A stretch of DNA of 55,573 bases. Source: a virus. Positions 6,285 through 40,230 of the stretch are shown piece by piece. The notes under the pieces were generated by a model that ran no database searches, was not told where the DNA came from, and was given only the letters and a program-made list of their open reading frames with translations. How positions within the stretch are numbered: position 1 is the first letter of the stretch; each line of letters opens with the position of its first letter. Where the stretch lies: IMG/VR virus record IMGVR_UViG_3300018083_000009, positions 1-55,573 of that record; one strand, 5' to 3'. Position numbers and translations under genes: made by a program.

Positions 6285-6329
6285 AAAAAAATCCCGGTAG
6301 ACGCGCTGTGTCTGCGTTGGTCTACCGGG
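6285..6329 (-). terminator. Rho-independent terminator of the leftward operon
   Basis: Perfect 10-bp arms CCCGGTAGAC (6293-6302) and GTCTACCGGG (6320-6329) flank a 17-base loop. Read leftward, the stem is followed by ATTTTTTT (6285-6292). It lies 33 bases beyond the stop of the last leftward gene, so it ends the whole leftward transcript. Confidence 0.9.
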
Positions 6330-6362
6330 TTGGCGAGGGATTCCATTGTTCCTTTCTGGTAA

Positions 6363-12031: not shown

Positions 12032-12132
12032 TGTTCTACTTTCATTTCAGTTTCATTAGGTTAGTGTCTGGCCACATGATCGACTCCAGAAAACTGCAAC
12101 GTTGCAAGAACGTTGCAATTTTATGCTTTCGA
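12032..12132 (-). repeat. Tandem-hairpin spacer I
   Basis: First hairpin TGCAACGTT-GCAAG-AACGTTGCA (12095-12117). Second element TCTGG...CCAGA (12067-12071 and 12086-12090) is inside the 29-base block shared with spacer H. The flanking stop contexts (AAAGGCTAATCGAAA) are also shared, so spacers H and I are duplicates whose main stems have diverged. Confidence 0.75.
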
Positions 12133-12345
12133 TTAGCCTTTAGTCTTTAACCATTTACCATCAACTTGCTTCTGATATTGTTGGCCTTTACCAGCACCTA
12201 AACCAATGCCGAATTTTTTGTGACACTTAGGACACAAATTCGCCCACGGTCCAAACTTAGTGCGACCATCAATAAATGTCGTTGTGATAACGCATTTATT
12301 CAGATCACATTCGGTTGGTTCTAAACCAATCCAATACTTTTCCAT
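12133..12345 (-). CDS. Small zinc-binding protein
   Basis: A 70-residue protein with C-x4-C (ECDLNKC) and CPKC (about residues 13-41), a likely zinc site, then a Gly/Lys-rich tail (GIGLGAGKGQQYQKQ). Its leader AAAAGGAAAGTGAGCT is shared with the next gene upstream. Function unknown. Confidence 0.65.
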   Translation of the reverse strand: MEKYWIGLEPTECDLNKCVITTTFIDGRTKFGPWANLCPKCHKKFGIGLGAGKGQQYQKQVDGKWLKTKG

Positions 12346-12443
12346 AGCTCACTTTCCTTTTCAGTTCGTTTCAGATTCCAAACCATTTTCATGTTTTGGT
12401 GCTTGCTCCTGGCCTACCGCCAGGAGCAATCATAAAAACACGA
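12346..12443 (-). repeat. Tandem-hairpin spacer J
   Basis: First hairpin has perfect 11-bp arms TTGCTCCTGGC / GCCAGGAGCAA (12403-12413 and 12419-12429). Second hairpin CCAAA...TTTGG (12378-12399). Confidence 0.75.
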
Positions 12444-12677: not shown

Positions 12678-12764
12678 AGCTCACTTTCCTTCAGTTCGTT
12701 TCAGTTATCAAACGCGATGTTGCGTTTGTAGAATGAGTGCTCGCACTCATTCCATAAAAGCAAC
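12678..12764 (-). repeat. Tandem-hairpin spacer K
   Basis: First hairpin GAATGAGTGC-TC-GCACTCATTC (12731-12752). Second hairpin CAAACGC-GATGTT-GCGTTTG (12709-12728). The standard leader follows. Confidence 0.75.
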
Positions 12765-12998
12765 TTAACCCATATAGAGCAACGTTCCGTTTAACGTTCC
12801 GAAAACATTACTATACATTTCAGCCTCTTTCGGAGTCGCTTCCCGTTCCAAATTGGAAACGAGAATTTGTGCTTCCTTTTTCGTTATCCTAATCCAACGT
12901 TCCGACGTTCCGAAACGCGCTTGAATGTATACCACTTTGGCAACATTCAAAGCGCATTGCAAAGCGTCAACCGTTGTTAGATTATGATGACTCGACAT
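12765..12998 (-). CDS. Hypothetical protein
   Basis: A 77-residue protein (MSSHHNLTTVDALQCALNVAKVVYIQARFG...). The ATG at 12998 has AAAAGGA eight bases upstream, as in the rest of the operon; a start 18 bases earlier would remove that site. Predominantly helical with a RWIRITKKEAQIL segment. Family not recognised. Confidence 0.6.
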   Translation of the reverse strand: MSSHHNLTTVDALQCALNVAKVVYIQARFGTSERWIRITKKEAQILVSNLEREATPKEAEMYSNVFGTLNGTLLYMG

Positions 12999-13081
12999 TT
13001 TCACATTCCTTTTCATTTCGTTTCAGGTTCTAGCGTATGCTAGTAAATGCATCCCATGGGATGCATTCATTAGGATAAGCT
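12999..13081 (-). repeat. Tandem-hairpin spacer L
   Basis: First hairpin is a perfect 22-base palindrome (13046-13067, half-site AATGCATCCCA). Second hairpin CTAGC-GTAT-GCTAG (13030-13043), almost the same as in spacer A. Confidence 0.75.
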
Positions 13082-13249
13082 TTAGACCATATCTTCGCGC
13101 ATTGTAAAAGTTACCTTCTGAGAATGATTCAACAATCTCAGAAGCTTGTTAGCCTCTTGCGAGGTGACAGGTTCATTGCAGTTGTTATACAGGCTGATTA
13201 AAGCCTGCTCTAGCAATGCGATTTGATATTGTGTCAACTTAGTTACCAT
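13082..13249 (-). CDS. Small helical protein, first gene of the leftward operon
   Basis: A 55-residue frame (MVTKLTQYQIALLEQALISL...) ending REDMV. It is predicted helical, with EPVTSQEANKLLRLL in the middle. It fills the gap between spacer L and the noncoding control region and ends with the same spacing as its neighbours. The upstream leader has only a weak GAAAGTGAAATGAA site. Function unknown. Confidence 0.6.
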   Translation of the reverse strand: MVTKLTQYQIALLEQALISLYNNCNEPVTSQEANKLLRLLNHSQKVTFTMREDMV

Positions 13250-13319
13250 TTCATTTCACTTTCATTACTAGGGTTATCACTCTGTATTTATCCGGGCTTG
13301 TGACCGGCATAGGCTACAT

Positions 13320-13860
13320 TACAAGGCGACTCTTAAAGCTAAAGCTTTATCGCGTATTTACGCTAAAGAGTCGCATTGAACCTAGTTTCGAAACTGAAAG
13401 GAACAATGGAACCTTGCCAATGGTGAGCGCCAGGATTCGCTTTTATCTATTCTGGCGCTTGCACTCTATCCCTAGGGGATAGCCTAGCAAGGTTAGCTTA
13501 TTCGATTGTCAAAGAGTGGGACTCCGCTTTCCCCAAAAATTCGAAACGGTAACGACTCTTCGCGTTTTATGCTTGCGTTACCTAGCGTTTCAATTTGCCA
13601 CCGCATTGTGGGCTTGAGTCTTACCTTTGCCGGTAGATCAGTCGGTTAAACACTTAATCCATTGGAATCGTCGGCGCTGATTCGTAAGACTCGGATCGTT
13701 GGTCAGGCTAGTTAATCCAAGCCCATAACAGGCTCTAAATGGCGACTCATTGTTTAACCCTATGCGCCAAGCGCAAAGGTAAGTGGGGGAGCGGATTCAG
13801 TTTTCAAAGATCAGAGGGAAGCCCGGTAGGCTAGGCTAGGCTCGGGGCTTCCCTTGTAGT
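13320..13860 (-). ncRNA. Candidate large structured RNA
   Basis: Nested complementary segments can be read by eye: GCGACTCTT 13326-13334 with 13366-13374; AACCTTGC 13410-13417 with 13487-13494, enclosing AGCGCCAG (13426-13433/13452-13459) and CTATCCC (13466-13472/13476-13482); GGTAACG 13548-13554 with 13576-13582; CTTACCTTTGC 13620-13630 with 13773-13783, enclosing GGTTAAACA 13644-13652 with 13751-13759; TCCGCT 13523-13528 with 13790-13795; and GGGAAGCCC 13816-13824 with 13845-13853. An alternative pairing also exists. The strand is uncertain. Leftward is favoured because a TTGTAA-N16-TATATA promoter-like pair lies at 13882-13909 reading left. It could be a free RNA or the leader of the leftward operon. 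Confidence 0.5.
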
Positions 13861-13881
13861 CTAGTAGATAGTAGAAATTGT

Positions 13882-13909
13882 TATATAGGGATTAGTTTTC
13901 GAATTACAA
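13882..13909 (-). promoter_or_regulatory. Candidate leftward promoter
   Basis: Read leftward, TTGTAA (13904-13909) and TATATA (13882-13887) are separated by 16 bases. Transcription would begin just before the GGGAAGCCC hairpin and run through the structured stretch into the leftward genes. The -35 match to TTGACA is partial. Confidence 0.35.
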
Positions 13910-14021
13910 GGGGTTATTTTACTTAGAATGTCGATTTTCTTACTGTCAGCTTACTAAGGATTTACAAGGGTTTACTGCTAATACTGGCGAGTTCTCTTAT
14001 ATTTCCTTAGCAATGCCATGG

Positions 14022-14073
14022 TTTGACATAAGGCAAGATCCACCCCGCAGGGTAAGGCTTGCCTTATGTCAAA
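14022..14073. repeat. Perfect 16-bp inverted repeat
   Basis: TTTGACATAAGGCAAG (14022-14037) and its exact complement (14058-14073) flank a 20-base spacer. Each arm contains a TTGACA box reading toward the spacer. It could be an operator over divergent promoters or a cruciform at an origin. No T-run follows, so it is not a standard terminator. Confidence 0.6.
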
Positions 14074-14099
14074 ATTGCCTTTTGACAAGCTTCCCTGGC

Positions 14100-14258
14100 G
14101 AGCCGATAGGCTAGCCATGGCTCTAGAGCCATGGGACCATGGCCGTGGCGCGGCTCAGAGGCATCCCACAGGCCGCCTAGGCCGCTCCTGCTAGGGGGAT
14201 AGCAGGAGACTCCGTTTGGCCAGTTCTGATAAAAGTCAATTGGGACGAATCCCAATTG
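14100..14258. repeat. GC-rich palindrome cluster
   Basis: It contains a perfect 20-base palindrome (14115-14134, half-site CCATGGCTCT) inside GAGCCG/CGGCTC arms (14100-14105 and 14151-14156). Next come CTCCTGCT-N8-AGCAGGAG (14185-14208) and CAATTGGGA-CGAA-TCCCAATTG (14237-14258). The stretch is more GC-rich than the genome average. It looks like structured regulatory or origin DNA. Confidence 0.55.
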
Positions 14259-14291
14259 CGAGACACGATTTGCTCTTTGATAATCTCATAT

Positions 14292-14353
14292 GATCTAGCT
14301 GCTAGATAGCTGCTATCTTCTAGATAGCTGCTAGATAGCTGCTAGATAGCTGC
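14292..14353. repeat. 11-bp tandem iterons
   Basis: Four exact copies of TAGATAGCTGC (14303-14313, 14321-14331, 14332-14342, 14343-14353) follow one imperfect copy (14292-14302), with a 7-base interruption after the second. An 11-base step places each copy on nearly the same face of the helix, as for iterons bound by an initiator or for cooperative operators. Confidence 0.7.
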
Positions 14354-14416
14354 TAGCTTCCACTAGCTATCCGATAGCTACCGCTAGCAAGCAAAACGCA
14401 TGGCCGCTCGTTTACC

Positions 14417-14524
14417 ATTCCGAAATGGGAACGATATTGATTGACCAATAGCTGGCATTCACTATTCCGAAAACGGAACGATGTTTGACATAGCTATGGC
14501 GTATGATGGTTCCAGACGCGGAAC
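14417..14524. promoter_or_regulatory. Repeated TTCC/GGAA dyads, candidate operators
   Basis: A direct repeat ATTCCGAAA..GGAACGAT occurs at 14417-14435 and 14464-14482. Each contains an inverted TTCC...GGAA, perfect as TTCCG-AAAA-CGGAA at 14465-14478. A third dyad GTTCC-N6-GGAAC is at 14509-14524. Spacing of about 45 bases upstream of the rightward operon suits repressor or activator sites. Confidence 0.45.
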
Positions 14525-14588
14525 TGTGTTATCCATCCATAGAGTTGACCCTTTGCTCCTGGCGTTGGGACCAACGCTACCGCGATTC

Positions 14589-14594
14589 TATAAT
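14589..14594 (+). promoter_or_regulatory. Candidate -10 box for the rightward early operon
   Basis: A perfect TATAAT lies about 100 bases before the first rightward gene (14696). The expected -35 position has no good match, so an activator-dependent or extended promoter would be needed. Confidence 0.3.
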
Positions 14595-14695
14595 TTTTGC
14601 AAATATGCCGATTCAAGCTTGCGCCAATCCGCCAGGAGAGTAAGTTAGCTAGGCCGATGATTCGAATCGGTAACAAATCCCCATATAGGTAAGTT

Positions 14696-15502
14696 ATGTC
14701 AGATGACGTGCAAACTTTGCAACGGAGTCCGGATGATTCTGGCTCCGATGTGGCCGCAATGGAAAATGAAAACATTGCGGAGGAAACCACAAGAAAACGT
14801 CGCCGCTTCCGACCAGATGAAATCAGGCTCGCGAATAAATTCGTTTCACTCGCGGAACCGGGCACGCCAATTGAGTTTAGTGAACTCGAAACGGAACTGA
14901 AACGGGCTGTTTTACCTAACAGACAAACTCGTTTGGTTGACCGCGGAATCCTCGAAGTTGATTACGACGAGGAAACGGGATTGCTTAGGACGGTAACTGT
15001 TAATACCGAAATGCTTAAAGAGTATGAGTGGGATTTGATTCCGATTAAGGAACCAAAAGTTTCCGCTCGTGTAACGTTGAAAGGTGAACCACGGCAACGT
15101 AAACCGCGCAACATGCTTGCCGATCCGAAATATAAAATCAGCATGTTGGCGGAAAAGAATCCGAAACGTCCAGGCTCGCACTCGTGGTTTAATTGGGAAA
15201 ATTGTTATCACGATGGCGAATCAGTTCCGGATTACCTATCGCAAATGAATTATCCGCGTATGCTTATCACATCAAAAGGAACTTATTTTAACGGACCATC
15301 GACTCTGTTTATCGAACAAGATTTGAAGGCCGGTCATATTGGTATCTATGATTCAACGATGCCGACCACGCTAGATGATGGCAGCAAAAATCCTGCTATC
15401 TGGGTTAAGTTTGAAGACCTGAGTCGTATCATGGTTGACGACCCTGAGCCTGATGATGACGATCCCGAAAATGGCGAATCAGCCGAGACCCCAACAGAGT
15501 AA
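14696..15502 (+). CDS. Hypothetical acidic protein, first gene of the rightward early operon
   Basis: A 268-residue protein. The N-terminal 35 residues and C-terminal 25 residues are acidic and probably disordered (DDPEPDDDDPENGESAETPTE). Between them lies a basic patch (TRKRRRFRPDE) and a region that may form a winged helix (EIRLANKFVSLAEPGTPIEFSELETELKRAV). The second half has PGSHSWFNWENCYHDGE. First position in the operon suggests an early regulatory or host-takeover role, but no family is recognised. Confidence 0.65.
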   Translation: MSDDVQTLQRSPDDSGSDVAAMENENIAEETTRKRRRFRPDEIRLANKFVSLAEPGTPIEFSELETELKRAVLPNRQTRLVDRGILEVDYDEETGLLRTVTVNTEMLKEYEWDLIPIKEPKVSARVTLKGEPRQRKPRNMLADPKYKISMLAEKNPKRPGSHSWFNWENCYHDGESVPDYLSQMNYPRMLITSKGTYFNGPSTLFIEQDLKAGHIGIYDSTMPTTLDDGSKNPAIWVKFEDLSRIMVDDPEPDDDDPENGESAETPTE

Positions 15503-26174: not shown

Positions 26175-26716
26175 CAATTATAGTCTTTGACACGGAGACC
26201 ACGGGGCTTTTAGGTCCAATGGCAATGGGTGTTGAACTGCAACCACATTGTATCGAGTTCCATGGTATCAAGTTAAATTTGGAACTTGAAGTAATTGATA
26301 TGATGTCGTTTAGATGCAAGCCACCAGTGCCAATTAGTGAAGGTGCGATTCGTGTCAATGGCATAACGAATGAGATGCTTGTTAATGAAAAACCATTTGC
26401 TTATTTCTTTACTGGTTTAGCTGAGTTTTTTACTGGTTCGCTCCTGGCGGTAGGCCACAACATCATGTTTGATAAAATGATTTTATGGTATGAATTGGTT
26501 CGTCTCAATATGACATTAAGTTTTCCGTGGCCCATGGGATCGATATGCACCGCTGAAACGTGTTCGAAACAATTGGGTTATCGTCAAACCTTAACAGATA
26601 TGCATGAACGCTTGTTTGGCACTGGTTTCACTGGCGCGCATACCGCATCAGGTGATTGCGCTATTACAATGAAATGTTTTGTTGAGTTTGTGCGACGTGG
26701 AGTCATTACGTTGTGA
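26171..26716 (+). CDS. DEDDh 3'-5' exonuclease (DnaQ/epsilon-like)
   Basis: A 181-residue exonuclease. Exo I is FDTETTG (residues 5-11, catalytic Asp and Glu), Exo II is GHNIMFDKM near 95, and Exo III is HTASGDC near 157-163, giving the DEDDh set. It removes nucleotides from DNA 3' ends. Because the phage polymerase has a degenerate PHP domain, this protein could supply proofreading, as epsilon does for cellular DnaE; that link is inferred. Confidence 0.85.
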   Translation: MTIIVFDTETTGLLGPMAMGVELQPHCIEFHGIKLNLELEVIDMMSFRCKPPVPISEGAIRVNGITNEMLVNEKPFAYFFTGLAEFFTGSLLAVGHNIMFDKMILWYELVRLNMTLSFPWPMGSICTAETCSKQLGYRQTLTDMHERLFGTGFTGAHTASGDCAITMKCFVEFVRRGVITL

Positions 26717-27411
26717 GATATATGGGCGGAAAACATGATTTTGCCAATGAATTAGCCGAAATTATTGGTTCCGGAGATGTATTGATTGAACCGTTCATAG
26801 GTGGTGGAGCAATGACCGCTGCGCTTGCTCCATCGTTTCGAAGTGTTTATGCTTATGATAATCATATCGATTTAGTTTTGATGTGGCAAGCATTGCTTGA
26901 GGGTTGGATGCCACCGAACAAAATTTCGCGTGAAGAATATTATTCATTGAAGAAACAAAACAATAGTGCGTTGCGTGGATTTGTAGGATTTAGTTGCGCT
27001 TTCGGATCAACTTGGTTTGGCTCATATGCTTTTGATGATAAAGGTGGACGAAATTTTGCTGATGAAGCGAAACGAATGTTAATGACGCAAATTAAACAGA
27101 TGAAAAATGTCGTTGTTGACTTGGAAGATTATCGTAACCTAGTTATACCGCCAGGAGTAACGATTTACGCCGATCCACCTTATGGCGGAACAAAAGGTTA
27201 TAGAAACCCACTCGAAACGAATGATTTTAATAGTCGTGAGTTCTGGAAGATTGCTGATCTTTGGGCAGATAGTGGAGCAACCGTTTTTGTTTCAGAATTT
27301 AATGCTCCTGGCGGGTGGACTTTAGTTTGGGAAAAGGAACGATATGAAAGAGCGCAAAGAACGCTAACCGTTCGAAACAAAGTTGTTGAACGTTTATATT
27401 GTAAGGGATAA
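26713..27411 (+). CDS. Dam-like DNA adenine methylase, copy 1
   Basis: A 232-residue D12-class N6-adenine methyltransferase starting at GTG that overlaps the exonuclease stop. The AdoMet-binding start is MRYMGGKHDFA; IEPFIGGGAM is motif I; catalytic DPPY is at about residue 154. It is closely similar over its whole length to the next gene, so the two are a tandem duplication. The recognition site is unknown. Octamers occur at the PPG and APG codons, in the same places as in copy 2. Confidence 0.85.
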   Translation: MRYMGGKHDFANELAEIIGSGDVLIEPFIGGGAMTAALAPSFRSVYAYDNHIDLVLMWQALLEGWMPPNKISREEYYSLKKQNNSALRGFVGFSCAFGSTWFGSYAFDDKGGRNFADEAKRMLMTQIKQMKNVVVDLEDYRNLVIPPGVTIYADPPYGGTKGYRNPLETNDFNSREFWKIADLWADSGATVFVSEFNAPGGWTLVWEKERYERAQRTLTVRNKVVERLYCKG

Positions 27412-27414
27412 GTT

Positions 27415-28104
27415 ATGAAATACATGGGCGGCAAAGCCAAGATCGCAAGCAAGCTAGCCGAAATTATTGGTTCTGGTGATGTATTGATTGAGCCATTCAT
27501 GGGTGGTGGTTCAATGACAGCCGCACTCGCGCCATCTTTTAACAAGGTATTTGCTTATGATATCCACATCGATTTGGTTCTGATGTGGCAAGCACTCCTG
27601 GCAGGGTGGGAGCCGCCTAGTAACGTTTCGCGTGAGGAATATTACAAATTGAAGTTCGATACGAACAGCGCATTAAGAGGATTCGCCGGGTTTGCTTGTG
27701 CTTTTGGTGGTGACTGGTTTCAAGGTTATGCATACAATACGATAAGAGCAAACTATGCACTTGAAGCTAAGAACTTGTTACGCAAGAAACTAAGGACGAT
27801 GAAAAATGTCGTTGTAGACCTGGAAGATTATCGGAACCTAGTTATACCGCCAGGAGCGGTTGTTTATGCTGATCCGCCTTATGGTGGAACACAAGGTTTC
27901 AAGACCGAATTGAATGGTGGCGAGTTCAATAGTAACGAGTTCTGGAATATTGCTTCCGGGTGGGCAACTAATGGTGCAACGGTGTTCGTTTCCGAATCAA
28001 ATGCTCCTGGCGATTGGGATTTGATCTGGGAAATGGAACGATCAAGAGGGTTACGAGGTAAGAACGATACACCTGTTGTTGAACGTCTATACTGCAAAGG
28101 ATGA
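27415..28104 (+). CDS. Dam-like DNA adenine methylase, copy 2
   Basis: A 229-residue paralogue of the preceding gene, three bases downstream. MKYMGGKAKIA, IEPFMGGGSM and DPPY (about residue 149) are all intact. Divergence is greatest in the middle (residues 75-120) and C-terminus, where target recognition is expected, so the two may have different sequence targets or work as a pair. Confidence 0.85.
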   Translation: MKYMGGKAKIASKLAEIIGSGDVLIEPFMGGGSMTAALAPSFNKVFAYDIHIDLVLMWQALLAGWEPPSNVSREEYYKLKFDTNSALRGFAGFACAFGGDWFQGYAYNTIRANYALEAKNLLRKKLRTMKNVVVDLEDYRNLVIPPGAVVYADPPYGGTQGFKTELNGGEFNSNEFWNIASGWATNGATVFVSESNAPGDWDLIWEMERSRGLRGKNDTPVVERLYCKG

Positions 28105-39479: not shown

Positions 39480-39489
39480 GGGAAACGAA

Positions 39490-40230
39490 ATGCTTAAATA
39501 CGCACTGGCAACGGTGTCACTCCTGGCGCTCTATGCGCCAGGAGCAAATGCGGATATCATTTCGACTTTGGGATATACCGCTAATGCAAACACTTCCGCA
39601 CTTAGTTTGATTGCAGTTCCACCACCAGGAAATCAACCACTCAACACACCTTGTTTGATTTGCGGAACGAGTCAACCGCAACAACCGGCAAACTTTGGTT
39701 ACAATAATTACCAGCAGTCTGGTAATCAAACGTTGTTTAGTGATTTCTCTACTGCTGCGACTGGCAATCAAAGTCTTGGAACGGATGTGGAAGGAACGCC
39801 ATATCTCGTTTCGTTTCTGCGAGCATTCTTGCTTAGTCAACTTGACTTGAATGGTCGTCTCGATGTCGGTATTGATGTTAATACCGGAACGGGTCAAGGA
39901 CCGGAAGTGTTGCAACGTTTTGTTGTAGTTGATGTCGTAAACAAAACGATACTCGCAGACTACAATCCGGTTGGTGGAACACCGTTGCCAACAGCTAACA
40001 ATGGCACTGGTTTTCCTGACTACATATTGAGTGGATTTAATATCGACCGTAACGATCTTTCACCAAACTCACAAATCGAGTTTTATGCAAGATGGTCGAA
40101 TGCTAGTGACGGTGCTGAATCGTTCTTTCTAGTTCCGGTTCCGGGACAACAGGATGTGCCAGAACCAATGAGTCTTGCACTTATGGGTATGGGTCTTCTC
40201 GGACTTGGAATGATTCGTCGTAAGGCATAA
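39490..40230 (+). CDS. PEP-CTERM domain protein with signal peptide
   Basis: A 246-residue protein. Residues 1-21 (MLKYALATVSLLALYAPGANA) are a signal peptide. The mature part is beta-rich, with one short Cys pair (CLICG). It ends VPEPMSLALMGMGLLGLGMIRRKA (from residue 223): a VPEP motif, a Gly-rich membrane helix and a basic cluster, the PEP-CTERM sorting signal recognised by exosortase in Gram-negative hosts. The gene is inside the head operon with AAGGGAAACGAA as ribosome-binding site, so it should be made late. An octamer inverted repeat (39520-39544) lies in the signal-peptide codons. Confidence 0.85.
   Translation: MLKYALATVSLLALYAPGANADIISTLGYTANANTSALSLIAVPPPGNQPLNTPCLICGTSQPQQPANFGYNNYQQSGNQTLFSDFSTAATGNQSLGTDVEGTPYLVSFLRAFLLSQLDLNGRLDVGIDVNTGTGQGPEVLQRFVVVDVVNKTILADYNPVGGTPLPTANNGTGFPDYILSGFNIDRNDLSPNSQIEFYARWSNASDGAESFFLVPVPGQQDVPEPMSLALMGMGLLGLGMIRRKA

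Follow-up and report, generated by a model that had tools for sequence, protein, structure and literature searches.

A probable structured phage operon leader ending in a predicted self-cleaving ribozyme of exchangeable class

Results

Folding and coding content of the block

The noncoding block at 13320-13860 of the window (the whole 55,573-nucleotide stretch of viral DNA analyzed here) is probably, with a chance that we put at roughly two in three, an approximately 550-nt structured 5' leader of the leftward operon, read from the minus strand and trimmed by a twister ribozyme at its 3' end. This reading is carried by a ribozyme identified with its covariance model, by an order of motifs kept in three phages, by a helix that covaries among them, and by a hammerhead ribozyme that occupies the same position in two relatives. 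The features of the proposed leader are collected in Table 1.

Table 1 Features of the proposed leader and its immediate surroundings, listed from 5' to 3' on the minus strand of the window
Feature	Position	Strand	Description
Promoter-like pair	13880-13909	minus	TTGTAA-N18-TATAAC; best sigma-70-like pair in 13790-14700, 9/12
Hairpin T (5' hairpin)	13815-13854	minus	10-bp G+C-rich stem, TAGGC x3 loop, z about -3
Motif 1	13804-13814	minus	CUGAUCUUUGA, boxA-like; identical in L013 (6702-6692) and L023 (4846-4836)
Domain A	13523-13795	minus	closed by long-range helix 13785-13795 / 13523-13533
Motif 2	13505-13518	minus	CACUCUUUGACAAU, boxA-like (CUCUUUGACAAU); identical in L023 (4676-4663)
Domain B	13411-13493	minus	helix 13487-13493 / 13411-13417 closing around two hairpins
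Motif 3	13397-13410	minus	UCCAUUGUUCCUUU; identical in L013 (6421-6408)
Hairpin C	13326-13374	minus	directly 5' of ribozyme, z -4.3
Twister (type P1) self-cleaving ribozyme	13274-13325	minus	RF03160 match, adjoins block
First leftward ORF	13082-13249	minus	55 aa; begins 25 nt after ribozyme

The original prediction described the block as a large, ornate noncoding RNA without a convincing gene. No credible ORF was found in it, and translated similarity to the relative L013 (see below) was absent across 13016-14696. All of the nested helices that had been named were recovered: the hairpin with arms GCGACTCT/AGAGTCGC (hairpin C), the multi-branch domain with closing arms ACCTTGC/GCAAGGT and two hairpins inside (domain B), the outer long-range helix, and the threefold TAGGC repeat in the loop of the last hairpin (hairpin T). 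Pairing of this density had been considered unlikely to arise by chance. On the plus strand, the 541-nt block folded at -196.5 kcal/mol compared with -162.3 +/- 6.9 kcal/mol for 400 dinucleotide shuffles (z -5.0), and the minus strand gave z -4.7. The block is thus more stable than shuffled sequence, but 2 of 24 random 540-nt windows from the same phage also reached a z of about -5. The neighboring 13870-14680, with z -8 and -7, is more structured than the block, and the counterpart of the block in L013 showed no global excess stability over shuffles (z -1.2 and -0.1). These controls make folding energy by itself weak evidence. The relatives retain the motif order, the closing helix of domain B (helix B), and the ribozyme.

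A kinship with the large phage RNAs GOLLD and ROOL had also been considered, and neither matched in Rfam covariance-model searches. GOLLD, ROOL, OLE, and tmRNA were all absent from the Rfam matches at E<=10 in 12700-14720, a search of the whole window at E<=0.2 gave the twister as its sole Rfam match, and no tRNA or tmRNA was detected in the window by ARAGORN or Rfam. The block resembles GOLLD and ROOL (PMC12286853) in being a large structured phage RNA that encodes no protein, but it differs from them in the lack of a covariance-model match and of tRNAs in the window, in its operon-leader position, in its 3' ribozyme, and in its nonconserved interior.

A twister ribozyme adjoining the block

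The RF03160 match scored 51.3 bits in Infernal, with an E value of 5.1e-10 when 2 kb were searched and of 1.4e-8 for the whole window. Because this score is lower than the Rfam gathering score of 67.2, a default Rfam scan shows no twister, whereas a permissive scan detects the match. Cleavage is predicted from the sequence to occur between U13321 and A13320 on the minus strand; the left boundary of the originally flagged block, 13320, coincides exactly with this site, which is why the ribozyme had been left outside the block.

The window copy shares with type P1 twisters of RF03160 the conserved core sequence, which is intact as GCCGGUCACAAGCCCGGAUAAA (GCCGGUCnCAAGCCCGG-UAAA), and the P2/P4 helices, with P2 intact as UGUA:UACA. 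It also shares the L4-L1 pseudoknot, which reads CAC:GUG in the window versus CCC:GGG in the family consensus. In ten other phage twister loci with the same core, L4 and L1 covary as CAC:GUG, CGC:GCG, or CCC:GGG, and two of these loci that were rescored (G006 and G007) likewise fell under the Rfam cut-off. An ORF with a ribosome site begins 22-100 nt downstream in nine of the ten; in the window, an ORF starts 37 nt past the twister core. A family search with the 55-aa product of the first leftward ORF gave no match. The window copy differs from the family in that it has no P3/P5 arm, has a large leader upstream, and has a weak P1, formed either by UUG/UAA with a bulged A only or by mispairs in the model register. 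Given the weak P1 and the score under the gathering threshold, the window twister may be slow or decaying.

Hammerhead ribozymes at the twister position in two relatives

Two syntenic relatives were found via the polymerase gene, L013 (polymerase 72% identical) and L023 (64-65% identical). Both relatives also have the 268-aa protein encoded on the right side of the control region (59% in L013 and 39% in L023). The comparison comprises three homologs of one narrow clade, including the window. Control-region DNA gave no similarity in phage and plasmid collections, the 268-aa flanking protein used as bait retrieved no relatives among public phages, and no relative was found in bacterial genomes searched by polymerase.

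In L013, the position of the window's twister is occupied by a type III hammerhead (minus strand, 6353-6300; 36.4 bits, E 4.5e-7 in an 81-nt search). The corresponding position in L023 also holds a hammerhead (about 4549-4496), and five further ones stand ahead of other leftward genes. When the seven hammerheads were aligned, 94% of the expected pairs were formed and 13 of 17 pairs varied on both sides (n = 7 copies; shuffles 5.1, 0/500). They carry the RF00008 core CUGANGA...GAAA, stems I-III, and a cleavable UH. The pair 10.1-11.1, normally G-C, is G-C in L013 and is U.U in four and G.U in two of the six L023 copies, so the activity of the L023 hammerheads is not certain; Perreault et al. 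discarded hits mispaired at 10.1-11.1 unless tested (PMC3088659). The operon position keeps a ribozyme while the ribozyme class is exchanged, which argues that selection maintains cleavage at that point.

The six L023 copies lie on the minus strand in one leftward operon (4521, 4151, 2851, 2454, 1718, and 734), each shortly before a ribosome site, and most have a CTCCTGGC...GCCAGGAG hairpin ahead of them. The leftward spacers that carry hammerheads in L023 contain, in L013, a nine-copy intergenic element on the minus strand (5716, 5402, 5071, 4355, 3838, 3249, 2550, and 1992, with a variant at 668), composed of CUAGAGAAUCCCUAG, a variable perfect stem, AUAGGCAUUCCCUAG, and a small hairpin. This element is possibly an RNA-processing element or an unrecognized ribozyme.

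Motif order and helices kept in three phages

Read on the minus strand, all three phages have the same order of elements: hairpin T, motif 1, domain A, motif 2, the helix-B domain, motif 3, hairpin C, ribozyme, and first ORF. Motifs 1-3 keep this order within noncoding DNA whose remainder can hardly be aligned. Motif 2 is degenerate in L013 (GGCUCUAUCUACAAAAUU), and motif 3 reads UCCGUUGUUUCUUU in L023 (4592-4579), giving a three-phage form of UCC[A/G]UUGUU[C/U]CUUU. A hairpin of differing sequence precedes motif 1 by 0-6 nt in all three phages, and hairpins of other sequence stand at the hairpin C position in L013 (z -2.0) and L023 (z -3.0), both on the minus strand. A motif-3 pattern scan matched, besides four hits, only L013's own record; the four (L018, L019, L021, and L022) looked coding, did not resemble the window in translation, and were attributed to chance. 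An exact copy of motif 3 (TCCATTGTTCCTTT) was also observed on the plus strand of the window at 6329-6342, just past the end of the leftward operon and beside a terminator-like hairpin.

The MAFFT alignment of domain B was unusable, and helices were therefore compared by anchoring on the motifs. The closing arms of helix B are ACCUUGCUA/UGGCAAGGU in the window, GCUGCCG/CGGCAGC in L013, and UGGGCUUACG/CGUAGGUCCA in L023; they form 9, 7, and 10 bp, respectively, with a different sequence in each phage (p 0.005, 0.013, and 0.005 versus random positions in the same records). Helix B has thus been replaced in sequence but kept in all three phages.

The structure of domain A is not demonstrably conserved, and its interior is variable, the spacing from motif 1 to motif 2 being 285, 197, and 159 nt in the three phages. 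Its closing helix (helix A) is ACGCUGCAAC/GUUGCAGCGU in L013 (10 bp, p 0.003-0.004) and GACGAAG/CUUUGUC in L023 (7 bp), and on the minus strand it is not by itself significant in the window and L023. This variability bears on whether the block is instead a stand-alone trans-acting RNA of approximately 500 nt, with the ribozyme generating its 3' end and the downstream mRNA being incidental. Such an RNA would agree with the strong folding of the window copy, with the defined 5' hairpin and ribozyme-made 3' end, and with the motifs kept across three phages. We nevertheless consider it unlikely: neither the length nor the structure of domain A is conserved, the element precedes the leftward operon every time, and the L023 ribozymes also stand before other operon genes, where no large RNA is released.

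Strand assignment and promoter-like sites

On the plus strand of the window, helix A is an unbroken 11 bp including one G.U, and on the minus strand it is bulged; this better pairing on the plus strand is the chief argument against the minus-strand assignment. The original prediction assumed an RNA read from the plus strand, for which the minus-strand ribozyme would be an unrelated neighbor, and the energy of the window block is indeed slightly lower on that strand (z -5.4 versus -4.2). The relatives point the other way. Helix B of L023 has 10 bp on the minus strand, where two of its pairs are G.U that become A.C mismatches on the plus strand, and the best plus-strand helix there has 5 bp. For domain B, z was -3.9, -2.7, and -3.4 on the minus strand and -3.7, -2.2, and -0.4 on the plus strand (window, L013, and L023, respectively), and the whole L023 leader folded 21 kcal/mol better on the minus strand (-126.6 versus -105.5). 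In all three phages, the minus strand carries the ribozyme and has support for the B and C domains. No good plus-strand promoter-like site lies ahead of the block, the best one, at 14565, being downstream of it. We therefore regard transcription of this RNA from the plus strand as scarcely credible. The original picture survives in part: motifs shared by three phages and a helix that survived sequence replacement support a structured RNA, but the informative strand is the minus strand, and the block looks more like an operon leader with a ribozyme at its end than like an independent ornate RNA.

Within the 900 nt upstream, the best promoter-like site on the minus strand lies shortly ahead of hairpin T, and its sequence predicts a transcription start at about 13870. 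L023 has a promoter-like counterpart at the equivalent place (TTGTTT-N17-TATAAG, 4909-4881), and no counterpart of the pair was found in L013. Motif 2 was considered as a -35 box (TTGACA) and dropped, as no -10 follows in either phage.

The palindromes might instead act as DNA, in a replication origin or a protein-binding control region between divergent operons, with RNA structure as a by-product. The divergent junction, a nearby minimum of the cumulative G-C skew, and the adjacent repeats and palindromes at 14022-14485, which fold even more strongly, would suit such a role. A self-cleaving ribozyme works only as RNA, however, and the G.U pairs of L023 helix B on the minus strand and the conserved single-stranded motifs between helices also speak against a DNA-level role, which we consider very improbable.

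Discussion

A working sequence of events can be proposed for the leader. Minus-strand transcription would begin near 13870 and proceed through hairpin T, domain A with a boxA-like motif on either side, the helix-B domain, motif 3, and hairpin C. The twister would then cut at U13321/A13320 and part the leader from the downstream mRNA, which would begin with a 5'-hydroxyl and keep a short leader ahead of the first ORF. 5'-Monophosphate-dependent RNase E acts poorly on a 5'-hydroxyl end, and the cleaved mRNA may be protected in cells from 5'-end-dependent decay.

The gamma-proteobacterial boxA consensus is GYTCTTTAANA (PMC5725501). Motif 2 differs from it at two specified positions, and this consensus may not be that of the host. 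Like the boxA of rRNA leaders and lambda-type nut sites, motif 2 has a UCUUU-A-A core and lies within a structured leader ahead of an operon, where a related motif occurs twice; this leader differs from them in having no identified boxB, a ribozyme downstream, and an imperfect match to the gamma-proteobacterial consensus. A plus-strand boxA-like site at 14273 was left out of the count, as it overlaps a promoter-like -10. A role in boxA/Nus antitermination is plausible from this short sequence similarity, and an antitermination leader would fit an operon of many small genes separated by stem-loops. The leader's most likely job would be the loading of Nus-type factors for read-through of this hairpin-rich small-gene operon by polymerase, a suggestion that we make tentatively and with considerable doubt.

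Several phage and prophage hammerheads flank single genes or short gene blocks, and it has been proposed that long phage transcripts are thereby cut to operon- or gene-length mRNAs (Perreault et al. 2011, PMC3088659). L023 is such a multi-gene case, and L013 has one hammerhead. The present arrangement differs in that a ribozyme stands at the leader position every time while its class is exchangeable (twister or hammerhead), in that the ribozyme stands behind a conserved structured leader, and in the U.U or G.U of the L023 copies at 10.1-11.1. Ribozymes between phage genes, several per operon, are thus already known (PMC3088659); the leader with an exchanged ribozyme appears to be new. A literature search of sources other than preprints retrieved no structured leader that carries boxA-like elements and invariably terminates in a ribozyme whose class can change. 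Recent work has reportedly also dealt with hammerheads in tailed phages.

The three phages could, at somewhat less than even odds, represent an undescribed family of phage operon-leader RNAs, with a 5' hairpin, two boxA-like elements around a variable domain, a multi-branch helix domain, and an obligatory 3' ribozyme of exchangeable class; after serving once in antitermination, such a leader would be removed by cleavage. Ribozymes occur widely among phages without a settled role, and a position at which their class is exchanged makes that role testable. If the boxA reading is true, self-cleavage would be linked to processive antitermination in a phage.

Additional observations in the window

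The region 13870-14680 is rich in palindromes and repeats, including a TAGCTGCTAGATAGC array at 14296-14360 and a perfect 16-bp inverted repeat at 14022-14073, and the repeat array at the equivalent place in L013 is a different one. This region is possibly an origin or partition site. Operator-like repeats TTCCGAAA(T/A)(G/C)GGAACGAT at 14411-14485 and 12788-12860 flank the control region. Each of the leftward spacers at 12079-12133, 12389-12443, 12719-12764, and 13032-13081 contains a strong stem-loop without an Rfam match, followed in three of the four by conserved sequence such as CTGAAACGAACTGAAAAGGAAAGTGAGCTATG. At 26713-28104, two neighboring genes encode evident paralogs that appear, on inspection of their sequences, to resemble D12-type adenine methyltransferases. 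Among the phage structural genes, 39487-40230 encodes a protein that looks secreted and carries a PEP-CTERM sorting signal at its C terminus (Pfam PF07589; 24.6 bits, exceeding the cut-off).
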